Assembly (NCBI GenBank): GCA_029940535.1
Contig: JAPYUM010000025.1
Coordinates: forward strand, 1 to 51,431
Reading direction: 5' to 3'
DNA from: Vicinamibacterales bacterium
GTDB taxonomy: Bacteria > Acidobacteriota > Vicinamibacteria > Vicinamibacterales > UBA8438
DNA length: 51,431 nucleotides
Of this stretch, positions 4,165 through 51,341 are shown piece by piece; position 1 is the first letter of the stretch; every line of letters starts with the position of its first letter. The notes below the pieces were generated by a model. It had not been told where the DNA came from. It made no database searches and was given only the letters and a program-made list of their open reading frames with translations. A program made the position numbers and the translations under genes.

Positions 4165-4253
4165 CTGCTACGATGCCCCTGCCGAGTTACGTCGCGAATC
4201 ACCGGTATGGGACTGCACGAGAGTGCAGAGAAACGCCAGGGCGCAAAACAATA

Positions 4254-4333
4254 CGCGCCCCGCTGCCACGGAGTGGAGCTGTCGGGGCCCCCGCGCAGTG
4301 GCCGCGTGGGGTTCGGGGCGCAGCCCCGTCTGA
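4254..4333 (+). repeat. Repeat family 1, copy 1 (GC-rich, palindromic)
   Basis: A degenerate copy of a dispersed repeat, also present at 16527-16620, 46599-46686, 47464-47557 and 50499-50523. All full copies end in GGTTCGGGGCGCAGCCCCGT followed by CTGA, whose GGGGC/GCCCC arms can form a hairpin. Here the 5' palindrome found in other copies is mostly lost. The repeat fills much of the 175-bp gap between rmlB and the next gene and stops 6 bp before that gene's TTG start codon. Confidence 0.75.
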
Positions 4334-4339
4334 ATAAAA

Positions 4340-16240: not shown

Positions 16241-16526
16241 GCAGGGTCATCATTATAGTCTGCCAACTCGACTGTGATTTAGTGGGGGCTGGACAAGCTC
16301 GCCAGTGCGCTCGTGCGGCGGGAGCGGGCATCTCGATCCGCGAACCGGTCGACGAGCCAGCTCTGCTTCACCTTGGCTCCCAGAGCGCTTCGCGCGGGCT
16401 AACGGAGTGCCTGGTCCCAACACCGAGGGAAAAGCGAGCGCATAGCTGGTCCCCGACCCGGCGCTAACACTCCGCGATCCCCACCGGCGGCGGCACGGCC
16501 CCCGGCTCGTCTCCGACGGGACCTCT

Positions 16527-16620
16527 TCAGACGGGGCTGCGCCCCGAACCCCACGCGAACGCTGCGCGGGGACCCCGAGAGCCCCACTCCGCGTCCGCGA
16601 GGCGCACATGTGCGCGCCTA
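16527..16620 (-). repeat. Repeat family 1, copy 2
   Basis: Inverted copy of the GC-rich repeat (read on the minus strand: imperfect palindrome GGCGCGCACATGTGCGCC, then TGGGGCTCTCGGGGTCCCCG, then GGGGCGCAGCCCCGTCTGA). It sits in the 543-bp gene-free gap between lepA and gltA, 50 bp from a copy of repeat family 2. The rest of that gap (16241-16526) shows no coding potential I would support. Confidence 0.8.
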
Positions 16621-16669
16621 GGCGGGACGGGAGCGCCATGGCGGCCAGGCCACACGCATCGCTGAGGGG

Positions 16670-16770
16670 TTTCCTGGCGACGCGTTCGCCTGGCAAGGCG
16701 CAACGAGGGAGCGGCCAGGCAGGCCGTGACCGACGCAGTAACGCGGCCAGGCGGACGCCTCGCCAGGAAA
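16670..16770 (-). repeat. Repeat family 2, copy 1 (101-bp element with long inverted arms)
   Basis: The outer 25 bp at each end are inverted copies of each other with two mismatches (arm begins TTTCCTGGCGAGGCGTCCGC), and complementarity continues a few bases into the flanks (GAGG/CCTC). The interior contains, on the minus strand, CTGCGTCGGTCAC, shared with the other copies. Read in the direction of gltA, the element begins 13 bp after the gltA stop codon. The whole can fold into one long hairpin. Confidence 0.85.
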
Positions 16771-16783
16771 ACCTCAGGAAAAC

Positions 16784-17919
<1,136 letters not shown>

Positions 17920-18189: not shown

Positions 18190-18955
18190 GAAACCGGAAC
18201 GAATCAAGGCGCTCCTCGAAGACGTGCGAACCGGTGCGTTGACGGTAGACACCGCCCAGACCAGACTGGCCGACGCCATGCGGGCGGCGCCGTTCGAGGA
18301 CGTGGGCTTCGCACGCGTTGACCACCACCGAGCGATCAGACAGGGGTTCCCGGAGGTGGTGTTCGGTCAGGGCAAGACGCCGGACCAGATCGCTCGAATC
18401 GCGGAGACGATCGTCGCCGCCGGGCACCGCTTGTTGGTCACGAGGACCGACGCCGAGGCCTACGCGGTCGTCCGCGATCGCGTGCCTGGAGCGCAGTTTC
18501 ATGAGAGCGCGCACATCATTAGCCACATCAGCCACACCACCGAGTCAGAACCGACCGGGCATGGCACCATCCTCATTGCGTCGGCCGGCACCGCCGACCA
18601 CCCAGTTGCCGACGAGGCGGCGGTGACCGCCGACGTCATGGGCAACCGGGTTGAGCGGGTGGACGATGTCGGTGTGGCTGGTCTGCACCGTCTGCTGGCC
18701 GAGCGGGCGCAATTTGAACAGGCCCGGGTCGTCATCGTCGTAGCGGGCATGGACGGGGCGCTTGCGAGCGTGGTCGGCGGACTCATTTCGACACCGGTCA
18801 TCGCCGTCCCGACCAGCGTCGGCTACGGCGCGAGCTTCGGTGGCGTCGCCGCGTTGCTGTCCATGCTGAACAGCTGCGCGACCGGGGTCGCGGTCGTCAA
18901 CATCGACAACGGATTCGGGGCGGCAGCGCTAGCGAGCCGGATCAACCACGCCTAG
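18188..18955 (+). CDS. larB: LarB, pyridinium-3,5-biscarboxylic acid mononucleotide synthase
   Basis: Carboxylates and hydrolyses nicotinic acid adenine dinucleotide in the first step of nickel-pincer (NPN) cofactor synthesis, the cofactor of lactate racemase LarA and relatives. 255 residues from the ATG at 18188, which gives the usual MKPERIKALLEDVRTG. The stretches RVDHHRAIRQGFPEVVFGQG and KTPDQIARIAETI are diagnostic. The C-terminal PurE-like AIR carboxylase domain is present (ILIASAGTADHPVADEAAVT, VVAGMDGALASVVGGLI, VIAVPTSVGYGASFGGVAAL, then NIDNGFGAA). An earlier ATG at 18131 is less likely. larC, larE and larA are not in the window. A family 2 repeat half-copy starts 1 bp after the stop. 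Confidence 0.92.
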   Translation: MKPERIKALLEDVRTGALTVDTAQTRLADAMRAAPFEDVGFARVDHHRAIRQGFPEVVFGQGKTPDQIARIAETIVAAGHRLLVTRTDAEAYAVVRDRVPGAQFHESAHIISHISHTTESEPTGHGTILIASAGTADHPVADEAAVTADVMGNRVERVDDVGVAGLHRLLAERAQFEQARVVIVVAGMDGALASVVGGLISTPVIAVPTSVGYGASFGGVAALLSMLNSCATGVAVVNIDNGFGAAALASRINHA

Positions 18956-18956
18956 A

Positions 18957-19003
18957 TTTCCTGGCGATCCGTCCGCCTGACGGCGTTGCTTCGTCGGTCA
19001 CAG
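18957..19003 (+). repeat. Repeat family 2, copy 2 (5' half only)
   Basis: Left arm and conserved interior of the 101-bp element (begins TTTCCTGGCGATCCGTCCGC, ends GCTTCGTCGGTCAC), starting 1 bp after the larB stop. The right arm is missing. The remainder of the larB-mutS2 gap (19004-19408) holds no gene I can support. The only other thing noted is ATTTGTGAA occurring twice, about 135 bp apart. Confidence 0.75.
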
Positions 19004-25398: not shown

Positions 25399-25414
25399 AC
25401 TGACGAGGAGGGAG

Positions 25415-25431
25415 CATACCGGGGGGGTATG
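25415..25431 (+). other. Hairpin after rpoD
   Basis: CATACC and GGTATG separated by five G. It lies 17 bp after the rpoD stop and 67 bp before the tRNA, with no T-run, so it is not a standard intrinsic terminator. It could be a processing or mRNA-stability structure between rpoD and the tRNA. Confidence 0.35.
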
Positions 25432-25497
25432 GGACCGACGAGCAACGCCGCCAGCCGGGGCGGATCGGCGGTCAGAGACGTGAAATTGTGCTTAACC

Positions 25498-25570
25498 GGG
25501 CCCATAGCTCAGCGGTCAGAGCCGCCGGCTCATAACCGGTCGGTCCCAGGTTCGAATCCTGGTGGGCCCA
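25498..25570 (+). tRNA. tRNA with CAU anticodon (Met elongator or Ile2)
   Basis: Folds as a standard 73-nt cloverleaf. Acceptor stem GGGCCCA/TGGGCCC (7 bp), D arm GCTC-AGCGGTCA-GAGC, anticodon stem GCCGG/CCGGT with loop CTCATAA (anticodon CAT at 25531-25533), five-base variable loop, T arm CCAGG-TTCGAAT-CCTGG, discriminator A. CCA is not encoded (next bases CTACA). The anticodon fits elongator tRNA-Met or the tRNA-Ile whose C34 is changed to lysidine by TilS. The GC-rich acceptor resembles bacterial Ile2 forms, but I cannot decide from sequence alone. It is not an initiator, which normally has a mismatch at 1-72. Confidence 0.93.
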
Positions 25571-34555: not shown

Positions 34556-34698
34556 ACTCGAAAACCTGCGGCACCCACACGTGCGGTCGCGCTCGCGCGC
34601 GACCTGGAAACCCGACGTCGACCGACCGGGCCGACGCGACACTAAAGGTCGGGCCGCGTCGACCCGACACACTGGTTGCGACCCGATTCGGACCAGGC

Positions 34699-34828
34699 GC
34701 GTGAGCAGTCAGCAGTCATCAGCCAGGCGCGGGGTGAAGACATCAACCTCGCAGACCAGTCAGCCTGCGTTCCCAGCGGCCGACTCTTCACCGCCGCCAC
34801 CCAACTGATGACTGCTCACTGCTCACGC
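34699..34828. mobile_element. 130-bp MITE-like element with 24-bp terminal inverted repeats
   Basis: Left end GCGTGAGCAGTCAGCAGTCA followed by TCAG (34699-34722); right end is its inverted copy with one mismatch (34805-34828). The 82-bp interior has no ORF. It lies between murD and ftsW in an otherwise tightly packed cluster, which looks like an insertion. No second copy and no obvious target duplication were seen in the window. The rest of the gap (34556-34698, 34829-34907) shows only a short palindrome GTCCTGCAGGAC at 34831. Confidence 0.7.
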
Positions 34829-34907
34829 GTGTCCTGCAGGACCCGTGCGACGCACCATGGCCATTCCGGGTGTCCGGGCCCTCCCCGCCTCTGACGCCCA
34901 GAAGTGG

Positions 34908-45391: not shown

Positions 45392-46369
45392 ATGAGAACA
45401 CTGATCACCGGCGGAGCCGGCTTCATCGGCTCGCATCTGGCCCGCGCCCTACTCGATGTCGGTCACGAGGTGTTCGTTCTGGACAACCTCTCCACCGGGT
45501 CGATCGACAACATCGAACCGCTCAAGACTCACCCGCGGTTCGACTATGCGATCGACACCATCACCAACGAGCCGATGCTCTCCGAGCAGATCGACCGTTG
45601 TGACGTGGTCTTTCATCTGGCGGCCGCGGTCGGCGTACAGTTGATTGTCGAAGCGCCGGTACACACCATTGAAACCAACGTCGCCGGCACGGAGGTGGTG
45701 CTCAAGCATGCCGCCAAGAAGCGCAAACTGGTGGTGATCGCGTCGACGTCGGAGGTGTATGGCAAGAGCACCGCGATTCCGTTCCGCGAAGATGCGGACC
45801 TGGTGCTGGGTGCGCCTCACCAGCACCGATGGGCGTATGCGTGCAGCAAGGCGATTGACGAATTTCTCGCCCTCGCCTACTGGAAAGAACGGCGGCTTCC
45901 GGTCATCATTCTCCGCCTGTTCAACACCGTCGGCCCAGGGCAAACGGGCCGCTACGGCATGGTGATTCCCAACTTCGTTCGGCAGGCCGTGGCGGGCGAA
46001 CCGATCACGGTCTTTGGCCCCGGGACACAGTCCCGAAGCTTTGGCTTCGTGGGCGACGTCACTCGCGGAATCATCGCCCTGGCCGCAGAGCCAAAAGCCG
46101 TGGGCGAGGTCTTCAACCTAGGCAACAACCACGAAACGACGATTCGGGAACTGGCGACCCTCGTCAAAACGCTGGCCGGAAGCGATTCGGAGATCGTGAC
46201 CATCCCCTACGACGAGGCATATGAGAGCGGCTTCGAGGACATGCCCCGGCGCGTCCCGGACCTGACCAAGGTGCAGAACCTGGTCGGTTACGAGCCCCGA
46301 GTACAGCTTCCGGACATCCTCACCTTGGTGATCGAACACCACCGAGCCCAACGCCCAGAGTACGTCTAG
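45392..46369 (+). CDS. NAD-dependent epimerase/dehydratase (sugar-nucleotide SDR)
   Basis: 325 residues from the ATG at 45392 (MRTLITGGAGFIGSHLARAL). Extended SDR: TGGAGFIGS loop at 6-14, LDNLSTG, the FHLAAAVGVQLIVEAP stretch, STSEVYG and catalytic YACSK. The later ILRLFNTVGPGQTGRYGMVI, SFGFVGDVTRGI and RVPDLTKVQNLVGYEP resemble UDP-glucuronate decarboxylase and GDP-mannose dehydratase-like proteins. The exact substrate cannot be told from sequence alone. A longer frame to 45263 lies inside the YchF-like gene. A family 2 palindromic element begins 1 bp after the stop. Confidence 0.85.
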   Translation: MRTLITGGAGFIGSHLARALLDVGHEVFVLDNLSTGSIDNIEPLKTHPRFDYAIDTITNEPMLSEQIDRCDVVFHLAAAVGVQLIVEAPVHTIETNVAGTEVVLKHAAKKRKLVVIASTSEVYGKSTAIPFREDADLVLGAPHQHRWAYACSKAIDEFLALAYWKERRLPVIILRLFNTVGPGQTGRYGMVIPNFVRQAVAGEPITVFGPGTQSRSFGFVGDVTRGIIALAAEPKAVGEVFNLGNNHETTIRELATLVKTLAGSDSEIVTIPYDEAYESGFEDMPRRVPDLTKVQNLVGYEPRVQLPDILTLVIEHHRAQRPEYV

Positions 46370-46370
46370 G

Positions 46371-46471
46371 TTTCCTGTCGAGGCGTCCGCCTGGCGGCGT
46401 TGCTGCGTCGGTCACATGCCGCCTGCATGCTCCCTCCTTGCGCCTTGCCACGCGAACGCCTCGCCAGGAAA
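46371..46471 (+). repeat. Repeat family 2, copy 3 (complete, 101 bp)
   Basis: Complete copy. Left arm begins TTTCCTGTCGAGGCGTCCGC, right arm ends CGCCTCGCCAGGAAA; the two 25-bp arms are inverted copies with three mismatches. The interior carries GGCGTTGCTGCGTCGGTCAC. It starts 1 bp after the epimerase stop, in the gene's orientation. Confidence 0.88.
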
Positions 46472-46514: not shown

Positions 46515-46548
46515 GCCTAGCCAGACAGACGCCTCGTCAGAAAACCTC
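46515..46548 (+). repeat. Repeat family 2, right-arm fragment
   Basis: CTAGCCAGACAGACGCCTCG followed by TCAGAAAACCTC matches the right arm of the 101-bp element with several changes. It lies 44 bp after the complete copy, so a second, decayed copy probably stood here. Confidence 0.5.
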
Positions 46549-46598
46549 CGGGGCGTGCGACGTCCGCCTTTGGCGTCGCTTTCTCCTCTGTGAGCCTC

Positions 46599-46686
46599 GG
46601 CGCGCACGTGCGCACCTCGCGGCCGCGGAGTGGGGCTCTCGGGGTCCCCGCGGGTCGGGGGGGGTTCGGGGAGCAGCCCCGTCTGA
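46599..46686 (+). repeat. Repeat family 1, copy 3
   Basis: Begins GGCGCGCACGTGCGCACC, middle TGGGGCTCTCGGGGTCCCCG, end GGGGAGCAGCCCCGTCTGA. Its last bases run into GAGGAGG, which can serve as Shine-Dalgarno for a GTG at 46696. Together with the family 2 copies it fills the 350-bp gap before the STN-domain gene. Confidence 0.8.
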
Positions 46687-46719
46687 GGAGGTTGCGTGTG
46701 TTCCGGTGTCGAGAGTCGT

Positions 46720-47466
46720 ATGCTTGACCTGATGCCCAAGGTGTCCTTCACGGAGTTCGTGATTCGGCTCGCTACGATCTGCGTCATGTTGACCTTGGCG
46801 GGGCCGACCGACGCCGCTGACAACCTCGAGCTGTCCCTCCAGGACGGCCGGGTCACGATCCGGGCGCAGCAGGTGTCGATCAAGACAATCCTCTCGGAGT
46901 GGGGCCGTGTCGGCAATACCACCATCATTGACGCGGACGGACTGGCTGACCAGGTCGTAACCCTGGAACTCGTCGACGTGCCGGAAGCGCGCGCCCTGCG
47001 CACACTGCTGCGCGACGCAGCCGGCTACCTCGCCGCGCCACGCGCGGAGCTTTCGGACGGGGACTCGCGGTTCGACCGCATCCTGGTGATGGCGGTGAGC
47101 AAGCCAGCGGCGACGCGGCAAGTGGCCGGCGTCCGAGGGTCCAGGCCGGCTCCGCCGCGGGTGAGTCCAACCAGTGGCCGTAGTCCAAACAACGGTAGAC
47201 GCGGTCGTACACCGTTCACAGCGACCGCCGCGCAGCAGGAACAGTCGGAACAGCTCCAACAGTTGCTGCGGCAATCCGATGACGGGGATGACGAGGAAGA
47301 ACCGGAGACGGTGGACTTGCCGACCTTCGGCAACGTGCCGGCCTCTCGACCTGGGCTGCCGATGGGCAGTTCCGACCCGAGTCGGAGGACCATCGGTATC
47401 GAAACCGGAGCGTTCGGCAGCACGACGACAGCCCCGGCACCAACCTCCACCATACGTCGACGCTAG
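46720..47466 (+). CDS. Secreted protein with STN/secretin-N-like domain
   Basis: 248 residues from the ATG at 46720; GTG at 46696 (with GAGGAGG upstream) and ATG at 46732 are alternatives. A signal peptide ends near GPTDAA. Residues about 33-110 (LELSLQDGRVTIRAQQVSIK, TILSEWGRVGNTTIIDADGL, then VVTLELVDVPEARALRTLLR) resemble the short STN domain found in secretins, FecA-type receptors and FecR-like partners. The rest is low-complexity, Gln/Glu/Pro/Ser/Thr-rich. No secretin pore or TonB barrel follows. The stop codon overlaps the start of a family 1 repeat, and the gene converges on the sigma/Ogt ORF. Confidence 0.65.
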   Translation: MLDLMPKVSFTEFVIRLATICVMLTLAGPTDAADNLELSLQDGRVTIRAQQVSIKTILSEWGRVGNTTIIDADGLADQVVTLELVDVPEARALRTLLRDAAGYLAAPRAELSDGDSRFDRILVMAVSKPAATRQVAGVRGSRPAPPRVSPTSGRSPNNGRRGRTPFTATAAQQEQSEQLQQLLRQSDDGDDEEEPETVDLPTFGNVPASRPGLPMGSSDPSRRTIGIETGAFGSTTTAPAPTSTIRRR

Positions 47467-47557
47467 GCGCGCACGTGCGCGCCTCGCGGACGCAGAGTGG
47501 GGCTTTCGGGGTCCCCGCGCAGCGGTCGCCGGGGGTTCGGGGCGCAGCCCCGTCTGA
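47464..47557 (+). repeat. Repeat family 1, copy 4 (best preserved)
   Basis: Contains the perfect 18-bp palindrome GGCGCGCACGTGCGCGCC, then TGGGGCTTTCGGGGTCCCCG and GGGGCGCAGCCCCGTCTGA. It fills the space between two convergent stop codons: it begins at the STN-gene TAG and ends 3 bp before the TAG of the sigma/Ogt ORF. Confidence 0.85.
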
Positions 47558-47560
47558 GTA

Positions 47561-48854: not shown

Positions 48855-50495
48855 ATGAGTCCCCCCGTGCCGAGCGCACCCGCGGCGCCCCCGCCACCTG
48901 ACCCATCGGCATCCGAGGCGCCCTCAAGTGGGCTTGCCCGCTCGGCCGCCGTCGTCGGCGTTGCGACCATGACCAGTCGGGTGCTGGGCCTGGTGCGAGA
49001 CCAGGTGCTGGCCTTCATGTTCGGCGCGGGCAACGCGACGGACGCGTTCTACGTCGCCCTTCGCATTCCGAACCTCGTACGTGACCTCTTCGCCGAGGGC
49101 ACGATGAGTGCCGCGTTCATCCCGACATTCACACGGCGTTTGACGGAAGAGGGTCGCGACGCCGCCTGGCAGCTCGGGCGCCACCTCATCACGGCGCTGA
49201 TCGTCATCACTGGGGCCCTGGTGATGGCGGGCATTCTCGTCGCGGCGCCGCTTACCCGGCTGCTCGCTCGAGATTTCGCCAACATTCCGGGCAAGCTCGA
49301 GCTGACCATCTCTCTGACCAGGGTCATGCTGCCGTTCCTGATGCTGGTAGCGGTGGCCGTTGCCTGCATGGGGATGCTGAACTCGCTACGTCGATTTTTT
49401 GTACCGGCCTTATCCCCCGCGATGTTCAACGTCAGCCTCATCGCGAGTGCGTTCCTCCTCGTCCCGGTCATGCCGCGTTTCAATCTCGAGCCGATCATGG
49501 CGATCGCGTTTGGCGTGGTCGTCGGCGGACTCGGCCAGATCGCGCTGCAGTACTGGGTGTTGCACCGAGAAGGCTTTCGATACCGACCGACGCTAGACCT
49601 GGCGGACCGCGGGCTCCGGACGATTCTGGGGCTGATGGGTCCCGGCACAGTGGCGGGCGCCGCCGTCCAGGTCAACGTGCTGGTCAACACGTTTCTGGCC
49701 ACGAGCCAAGGCACCGGCGCGGTCACCTGGCTGACCTTCGGCTTTCGACTGATGTATCTCCCGATCGGCGTGCTTGGGGTGTCTATCGCCACAGCCGCCC
49801 TGCCGGTGCTCTCGCGTCACGCAGCCCGCGCCGAGATTGCGGCGATGCGCCGGACCGTCTCACAGGGTCTGCGGCTGATGCTGGTCCTGACGATACCGGC
49901 GACGGTCGGCCTGATCGTCCTGGCGGAACCAATCGTCCGCCTGATCTTCGAGCGCGGCGAATTCACGGCGCTGGACACCCGCGCGACGGCGGTCGCTCTC
50001 GCATGCTACGCGCCCGGTATCGTCGGCTACTCGACGGTGCGTTTGGCCGTGCCCACCTTTTGCGCGCTGGGCACGAGCCTCATCCCCGCCTATGTCAGCG
50101 TCGGATCGATGGCCCTCAACATCGTGTTGAATCTCACCCTGGTCAGGATTCTGGGGTATCAGGGTCTGGCGCTTGGCACGTCCATCGCCGCTGTCGCGAA
50201 CGCCACCGTGCTGCTCGTCCTGCTCAGGCCGAGACTCGGCGGACTCGACGGCGCCGCACTCGCAACCTGCCTCGCGAAGATCGCGGTCGCCGCCGGAGTC
50301 ATGGGCCTTGCCCTGCGTGCCACGCACATCTGGCTCACGGCCCTCTGGCCCGATCCAGGATTCGCGAGACTCGCGGTGATGGTCGGCCTGGAGATTGCCC
50401 TGGGGGTCGCCGTGCTGGCCGGCATGGCCGGCCTGTTGCGACTCGCCGAGTTCAGGACGGCGGCAACCCAGATCGTCCGTCGCCTCCGAGAGTAG
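48855..50495 (+). CDS. murJ: Lipid II flippase MurJ
   Basis: MOP-superfamily membrane protein that moves lipid II across the inner membrane. 546 residues with about 14 membrane segments. A Pro/Ala/Ser-rich N-terminal tail of some 25 residues precedes the conserved VVGVATMTSRVLGLVRDQVL and RIPNLVRDLFAEGTMSAAFI. Also visible are LNSLRRFFVPALSPAMFNVS and FERGEFTALDT. The ATG at 48855 is the only plausible start. It is divergent from the sigma/Ogt ORF (161 bp between starts). Immediately after the TAG stop, a family 1 repeat fragment begins. Confidence 0.95.
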   Translation: MSPPVPSAPAAPPPPDPSASEAPSSGLARSAAVVGVATMTSRVLGLVRDQVLAFMFGAGNATDAFYVALRIPNLVRDLFAEGTMSAAFIPTFTRRLTEEGRDAAWQLGRHLITALIVITGALVMAGILVAAPLTRLLARDFANIPGKLELTISLTRVMLPFLMLVAVAVACMGMLNSLRRFFVPALSPAMFNVSLIASAFLLVPVMPRFNLEPIMAIAFGVVVGGLGQIALQYWVLHREGFRYRPTLDLADRGLRTILGLMGPGTVAGAAVQVNVLVNTFLATSQGTGAVTWLTFGFRLMYLPIGVLGVSIATAALPVLSRHAARAEIAAMRRTVSQGLRLMLVLTIPATVGLIVLAEPIVRLIFERGEFTALDTRATAVALACYAPGIVGYSTVRLAVPTFCALGTSLIPAYVSVGSMALNIVLNLTLVRILGYQGLALGTSIAAVANATVLLVLLRPRLGGLDGAALATCLAKIAVAAGVMGLALRATHIWLTALWPDPGFARLAVMVGLEIALGVAVLAGMAGLLRLAEFRTAATQIVRRLRE

Positions 50496-50498
50496 TAC

Positions 50499-50523
50499 TC
50501 AGACGGGGCTGCGCCCGGAACCC
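50499..50523 (-). repeat. Repeat family 1, copy 5 (fragment)
   Basis: TCAGACGGGGCTGCGCCCGG and following bases equal the end of the family 1 repeat, inverted. With the murJ stop it reads TAGTACTCAGACGGGGCTGC, identical to the bases at and after the sigma/Ogt stop on the other strand. Confidence 0.7.
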
Positions 50524-50567
50524 GCGCCGTCGTGGTACGATTGCAGTCCCTCCGGACGTCATACGCC

Positions 50568-51341
50568 ATGCCCAGATACGCACCCTCCTCGACGCTGTCT
50601 TCTTTCGGTCCTGGCGCTGTCACGCCGATCGTGAAGATGCTGATCTGGGCCAACGTCGGGACCTTCGTGGCGATGCAGATCGCGCCCGTGCTGGTTCAGT
50701 TCTTTGGGTTGACGCCGGCGGCGGTATTCGGCCGATGGTGGCTCTGGCAGCCGTTCACGTATCTGTTTCTACACGGCGGGTTCACGCACATCCTGTTCAA
50801 CATGCTGGCACTGTGGATGTTCGGCACGGAACTGGAACGTCTCTGGGGTTCGCAATTTTTCCTGCGGTACTACTTCGTCACTGGAACAGGGGCCGGCGTG
50901 GCGATGCTAGCGGCGTCGCTCATACCGTCGGTATTCGGTGAACGGATGTACGTGACGCCGACGATTGGCGCCTCCGGCGCGGTGTACGGGCTCCTGATGG
51001 CGTTCGCCATCTACTATCCGACCCGTCCGCTGTACATGTTCCCGTTTCCGATCCCAATCCCGGCCAAGTACTTCGTGCTGATTATCGGCGGTTTCGTCTT
51101 CTTTTCCTCGCTCAGCGACACGGCCGGTGGGGTGGCACACATGGCTCACCTCGGCGGCCTGATCGTGGGTTACCTCTACTTGCAACGTGGCGGACGGGGC
51201 GCCGGCCTTGGCCAGCTCGGTCGATTTGGCGTCATGGCGGAGATCAAGTACCGATACTTGCGGTGGAAGATGGGCCGTTTGCGAAAGAAGTTCAACGTGT
51301 ATCGCGGCGGAGGAGACGACTGGAACGGACCCGTGCATTGA
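50568..51341 (+). CDS. Rhomboid family intramembrane serine protease
   Basis: 257 residues from the ATG at 50568. Six or more hydrophobic segments. Catalytic serine Ser136 in PTIGASGAVYG; catalytic histidine most likely His194 in AHMAHLGG. The first-helix HGGFTHILFNMLALWMFG holds the His74/Asn78 oxyanion residues. A basic cytoplasmic tail (KYRYLRWKMGRLRKKFNVYR) follows the last helix. Substrate is unknown. An upstream GTG or ATG at 50532 would add 12 residues overlapping the spacer. A family 2 repeat starts 3 bp after the stop. Confidence 0.9.
   Translation: MPRYAPSSTLSSFGPGAVTPIVKMLIWANVGTFVAMQIAPVLVQFFGLTPAAVFGRWWLWQPFTYLFLHGGFTHILFNMLALWMFGTELERLWGSQFFLRYYFVTGTGAGVAMLAASLIPSVFGERMYVTPTIGASGAVYGLLMAFAIYYPTRPLYMFPFPIPIPAKYFVLIIGGFVFFSSLSDTAGGVAHMAHLGGLIVGYLYLQRGGRGAGLGQLGRFGVMAEIKYRYLRWKMGRLRKKFNVYRGGGDDWNGPVH

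Follow-up and report, generated by a model that had tools for sequence, protein, structure and literature searches.

The DNA analyzed here (the window) is the whole of contig C203, 51,431 nucleotides long, from a 4.83-Mb Vicinamibacterales genome (G000), whose closest named relatives in our contig collection are marine Acidobacteria and Vicinamibacterales assemblies. The window contains a palindromic repeat, called family 1 below, that stands just behind stop codons and points the same way as the gene. Does this repeat serve the 3' ends of genes, or is it placed there by a transposition mechanism? A sequence-only reading of the window had put forward both possibilities. We favor transposition over a conserved 3'-end function. 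Family 1 behaves like a MITE or a large REP and is most likely one.

All four copies recognized by the sequence-only reading were confirmed at their positions (Table 1), and so were their 25-bp arms and conserved interior, with the two complete copies being 87% identical (E 2e-31). A degenerate core copy and a lone arm, both absent from that reading, were also found. A second half-arm, GGTTTTCCTGAGG, sits between the first copy and the TAG of the gltA-like gene. The family-1 unit is a palindrome of 101-121 bp around a conserved hairpin core and starts one base past TAG. A tail of about 27 nt, with a consensus near CCNCTCGGACGTTTTTCAGCAACCTG followed by CTAG, is present in about half of the copies, and those that lack it have various other downstream modules. 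Even with this tail, the unit is too short for any transposase gene of its own. The gene strand had a fold z-score of -5.4, and its complement one of -7.9. Tandem copies spaced by about 104-114 bp were seen at L079, L047, and L170:3094-3299. At an orthologous locus (L177 and L082), the core hairpin was swapped for a longer one (CCCCCGCCCGATCGGGCGGGGG) while the outer arms and tail were retained. L082 belongs to a contig titled Chloroflexi (CAJWER010000188.1), but its downstream flank is 93% identical to G000 and, thus, it is probably an acidobacterial contig in a misassigned bin.

Table 1. Positions of family-1 copies and fragments in the window.
Feature	Position	Strand	Context
Complete copy 1, 101 bp	16670..16770	-	13 nt past TAG 16784-16786 (minus) of citrate-synthase-like (gltA-like) gene
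Left half of a copy	18957..19003	+	One base past TAG 18953-18955
Degenerate core copy	25404..25458	-	Between gene end (25398) and tRNA (25498-25570)
Complete copy 3	46371..46471	+	One base past TAG 46367-46369
Conserved core of copy 3	46408..46436	-	Antisense GAGGGAGC-hairpin-GTGACCGA; stem 46416-46419 with 46425-46428
Lone arm	46520..46544	+	49 bp past copy 3
Copy 4, cut by contig end	51345..51431	+	3 nt past TGA 51339-51341

The sequence-only reading had proposed a covariance-model scan and a table of stop distance and orientation as its check, and these upheld the observation and made it stronger across the genome. There were 43 blastn matches to the element in G000 among the candidates scored, and a covariance model built from 29 copies found 143. 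About 600 kb around copies was taken, containing 109 distinct matches: 106 true family-1 copies and three distant relatives. Genes were called in these draft genomes with a simple home-made 3-periodic Markov caller trained on long ORFs. The element started between -3 and +12 nt from a same-strand stop in 69 of the 106 copies, compared to about 4% expected from random intergenic placement in either orientation (binomial p 2e-66), and 45 of the 106 began exactly one base past TAG. The claim that the element always follows a stop in gene orientation, therefore, held for 69 copies and failed for the other 37, which were not directly behind a same-strand stop. The 69 copies were preceded by 58 TAG, 8 TGA, and 3 TAA stops, as opposed to 136 TAG (39%), 173 TGA, and 43 TAA among background stops (Fisher p 2e-12). 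The base preceding TAG was C more often at the element than in the background (p 6e-6), and CTAG was favored over GTAG. The sequence-only reading was right to reject random insertion: position, stop type, and orientation were all far from random. In an independent sample from the sister genome G003 (SAT150), 13 of 24 loci lay behind a called stop, all of them TAG; at most of the remaining loci the junction, read by eye, was YTAG/GTAG or TAAGG. By a hand count, the use of stop-adjacent CTAG exceeded that of intergenic CTAG placements about 12-fold, which is beyond what target choice explains.

Next to these counts, sister species provided alleles from before and after insertion. Gene ends upstream of 52 elements were searched within the genus, and the orthologous junctions were read. 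Orthologous alleles often had no element and yet stopped at the same codon. Empty alleles at 22 alignable orthologous stops had 16 TAG, 2 TAA, and 4 TGA (a hand tally with some sites counted in two species). Since the TAG is usually kept in sister alleles without the element, insertion took place behind an already existing stop. The cleanest pair is L127 and L209, in which the empty allele reads CTAG/CAGCCGTGTAG and the filled allele reads CTAG/GTTTCT...TTTTTCAGCAAGCGG/CCGTGTAG. Turnover was observed between G000 and G003: 6 of 20 sites shared a full element, 3 had remnants in G003, and 11 had none. Different subtypes were found behind the same stop in the two genomes (L128/L204), which points to repeated use of one site. 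The element was more alike than its flank at two shared sites, L116/L108 and L129/L107.

Of 105 copies, 100 fold more stably on the antisense strand than on the gene strand (means of -67.7 vs -56.5 kcal/mol; shuffled letters differ by 2.4). Mismatches in the arms are mostly C-A on the gene strand, equal to G-T on the antisense strand (243 vs 66). The antisense core can pair throughout if two tandem G-A/A-G steps form. Exact-pattern and looser scans also found this core in Sphingomonas lacusdianchii (about 8 copies), a Myxococcales bin, a Saprospiraceae bin, and Verrucomicrobia/Chthoniobacterales bins. The exact pattern was present only in G000 among 297 genomes drawn evenly across the phylum, few of which are close relatives. 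The core hairpin stems vary across phyla and nearly always still pair. Covariation was examined in 14 hand-picked representatives after the loops had been taken out and the G044 register adjusted manually, so the statistics lean towards structure; two pattern matches that do not form the stem (L280 and L286) were left out of the table. The GA steps were invariant, compensatory changes were seen in seven of the eight standard pairs, and the signal was gone when the partners were slid. Between the GA steps, G044 has both pairs reversed (CC/GG in place of GG/CC), and G038 has one A-T pair. A literature search for the core motif found nothing relevant. One tentative reading, possible rather than probable, is that the core is an undescribed widespread motif. 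On one strand, it would form an extended helix in which two tandem GA/GA steps, both invariant, surround Watson-Crick pairs that covary and a hairpin that varies. Mobile repeats of several phyla, with termini unrelated to each other, would carry the motif, a common protein would recognize it as a folded single strand of DNA or RNA, and in this lineage it would have become tied to stop-codon insertion.

The core is enclosed by other termini in relatives, namely [YTRR]CAGCCCGTGGTGAAAG... in G044, G010, and G014, [TTA]GTACTGCGTTTCAC... in G038, and [YTAG]AGCGGTTTCCG... in Sphingomonas. A sister family (the CAGCCCGTGG family) has the same core, two terminal repeats, and 4-bp target duplications with a consensus near CTAG (18 of 60 identical, 5.3 expected). 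Its ends are the same as those of intact IS that lie between CTAGs in G001 and encode 466-aa proteins with DUF772 and DDE_Tnp_1 domains, for which the nearest NCBIfam models, IS1182 and IS5, scored below cut-off. A second G001 IS (L410; 358 aa) scored above cut-off with the IS5 model NF033581. One of its ends is TTTTTCAGCAGCCTG followed by CTAG, which the family-1 tail, TTTTTCAGCAACCTG followed by CTAG, matches; the other is an inverted CAGGCTGCGGAAAAAC. The left end of family 1 did not match the L410 terminal repeat, and no family-1 copy with both ends was seen. A 4-bp duplication in family 1 was not significant at any offset (10 identical, 6.8 expected). With the left end and target duplication unmatched, family 1 was not assigned to a named IS family. 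Neither G000 nor G003 showed an intact transposase of either IS type; there were two DDE_Tnp_1 fragments in G000 and none in G003. The sister family, found at CTAG-like sites, served as a control. It lay exactly at a stop in 17 of 61 cases, 10 on the left and 7 on the right, with no orientation bias. CTAG targeting alone, therefore, falls short of the stop and orientation bias of family 1.

Several other repeats were noted. A second repeat family, CCTAGGCGCGCACGTGCGCGCCTCGCGG...GGGGTTCGGGGCGCAGCCCCGTCTGA, is often beside the element and occurs in the window at 4239-4336, 16526-16621, 46594-46697, 47463-47560, and 50493-50529. In the G000 orthologue of a G003 element site (L215), this second family is behind the same CTAG. 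The gap between two called genes at 34698-34829 of the window holds two 25-bp arms that are 96% complementary and 82 bp apart. A third inverted repeat, TGCCCTGGAACC...GGTTCCAGGACA, lies between CTAGs at L173:2613-2774, and its ends resemble those of IS630-type IS (TCCCCTGGAACA) found between CTAGs in G001 (L294, L298, L300, and L301). IS630 (DDE_3) was itself considered as the mover of family 1 and rejected, being absent from G000 and G003, though the G001 copies share the CTAG setting.

Family 1 is, in our judgment, probably a non-autonomous mobile element, MITE- or REP-like, that inserts directly 3' of a pre-existing TAG and then drifts neutrally. The suggestion of transposition aimed at gene ends fits the high copy number, the variation between sister species, the pre-existing TAG in most empty alleles, and the two subtypes at one stop. 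In the proposed mechanism, the element would insert directly 3' of an existing TAG, preferably CTAG, a motif found in GC-rich G000 mainly at stop codons and between genes. A copy that inserts in sense past the stop would leave the gene intact and would survive. At the same CTAG, a copy inserted the other way round would come between the gene and its stop and should be lost; selection can thus explain why antisense copies are missing at stops. Once inserted, copies would drift neutrally. DDE transposases of the IS5/IS1182 type may move the element in trans; their terminal repeats match the family-1 tail and both sister-family ends. The antisense strand may act as a folded single strand during movement.

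Another possible explanation is that family 1 is a 3'-UTR element (terminator, RNA stabilizer, or processing site) kept by selection and spread through its usefulness. Its sense orientation and stop adjacency go beyond CTAG targeting, the mRNA-strand hairpin is predicted at about -59 kcal/mol, and a convergent-gene setting is enriched at element-bearing stops (36:26) relative to background stops (88:248). We consider this explanation unlikely, since about half of the 20 compared sites have no element in the sister species, and most changes in the arms of shared copies disrupt pairing (36 breaking, 8 restoring, and 4 compensatory in 11 alignments, two of them poor). It is also the gene strand that folds worse in nearly every copy. 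A scan of two loci for an intrinsic terminator, a GC-rich hairpin directly followed by a T run, gave no match at the element; the T run, where present, is about 10 nt past the stem. Rfam 15 at gathering scores found only a tRNA in the window and, at a relaxed E-value, no match at the element in L001, L050, and L097. Shared family-1 copies decay like neutral DNA, and this decay, together with the variable presence between sister species, speaks for a mobile element rather than for a conserved task at the 3' end. The 3'-end function suggested from the window, therefore, was not supported.

The nature of the mover and of its guidance could also differ from the DDE-dependent mechanism above. A REP or IS200/IS605-type element that a Y1 (HUH) transposase mobilizes in single-stranded form, cutting 3' of CTAG, would agree with a palindrome beside a tetranucleotide, a one-sided junction without clear target duplication, and one strand that folds better. 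REPs, too, are known from positions behind genes, where the TAG stop is often provided by GTAG REPs (PMC3733652). This appears quite unlikely, however, because no PF01797 match was found in G003 and several other element-rich genomes (incomplete assemblies), the only Y1 gene of G000 is not flanked by the element, and the ends of IS200-like elements in G001, G009, and G022 are unrelated to family 1. A Y1/RAYT mover was rejected, as its occurrence does not track the element and no flanking copies were seen. A search for plasmid and phage carriage gave no match. Insertion might instead be guided to stops by transcription or translation, for example if the non-template strand is exposed at gene ends or if an RNA intermediate is used, and not by DNA sequence alone. 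Stop CTAGs do far outnumber intergenic CTAGs as sites, and the sister family uses CTAG-like sites without such a bias. However, the preference for CTAG over GTAG at stops points to DNA sequence, the rest of the stop bias could come from selection against other placements, and family-1 copies away from stops exist, which makes such guidance very unlikely in our view.

Among known systems, the GTAG/CGTC REP families, in which the REP terminus can supply TAG as the stop (Di Nocera 2013, PMC3733652), resemble family 1 in being palindromic, high-copy, intergenic, and close behind gene 3' ends. Those REPs are 20-40-bp palindromes with a tag belonging to the repeat, whereas family 1 is at least 101 bp long (101-135 bp), its TAG usually pre-exists in empty alleles, and CTAG is preferred. 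The interior of family 1 is also conserved, and it has no link to a tyrosine transposase; in place of a RAYT gene flanked by the repeat, there is one unflanked Y1 gene in G000 and none in G003. Family 1 is similar to MITEs of IS5/IS1182-type (DUF772 and DDE_Tnp_1) IS in that it is non-coding, has a CTAG-like target, and has a tail that matches an IS end. The sister family goes further, with both IS ends and 4-bp duplications. Unlike these MITEs, family 1 has only one recognizable terminal repeat and shows the stop-codon and orientation bias. IS1272, a Staphylococcus member of the IS1182 family, carries out stem-loop-replacing transposition, targeting DNA hairpins without target duplication (PMC5678879). 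It is of the same broad transposase family as the IS likened here to family 1, but in family 1 the hairpin itself makes up the repeat and does not undergo replacement. A hairpin beside a target tetranucleotide and one active strand are shared with IS200/IS605 and RAYT/REP systems, in contrast to the HUH transposase, which is not linked to family 1.

As a mobile repeat behind stops in one orientation, family 1 is unusually clear-cut, with both empty alleles and a sister-family control, and it allows one to ask whether targeting or selection gives bacterial repeats their gene-end bias. The covarying core, common to several phyla inside different ends, points to a structural module as a possible reason for the spread of such repeats.
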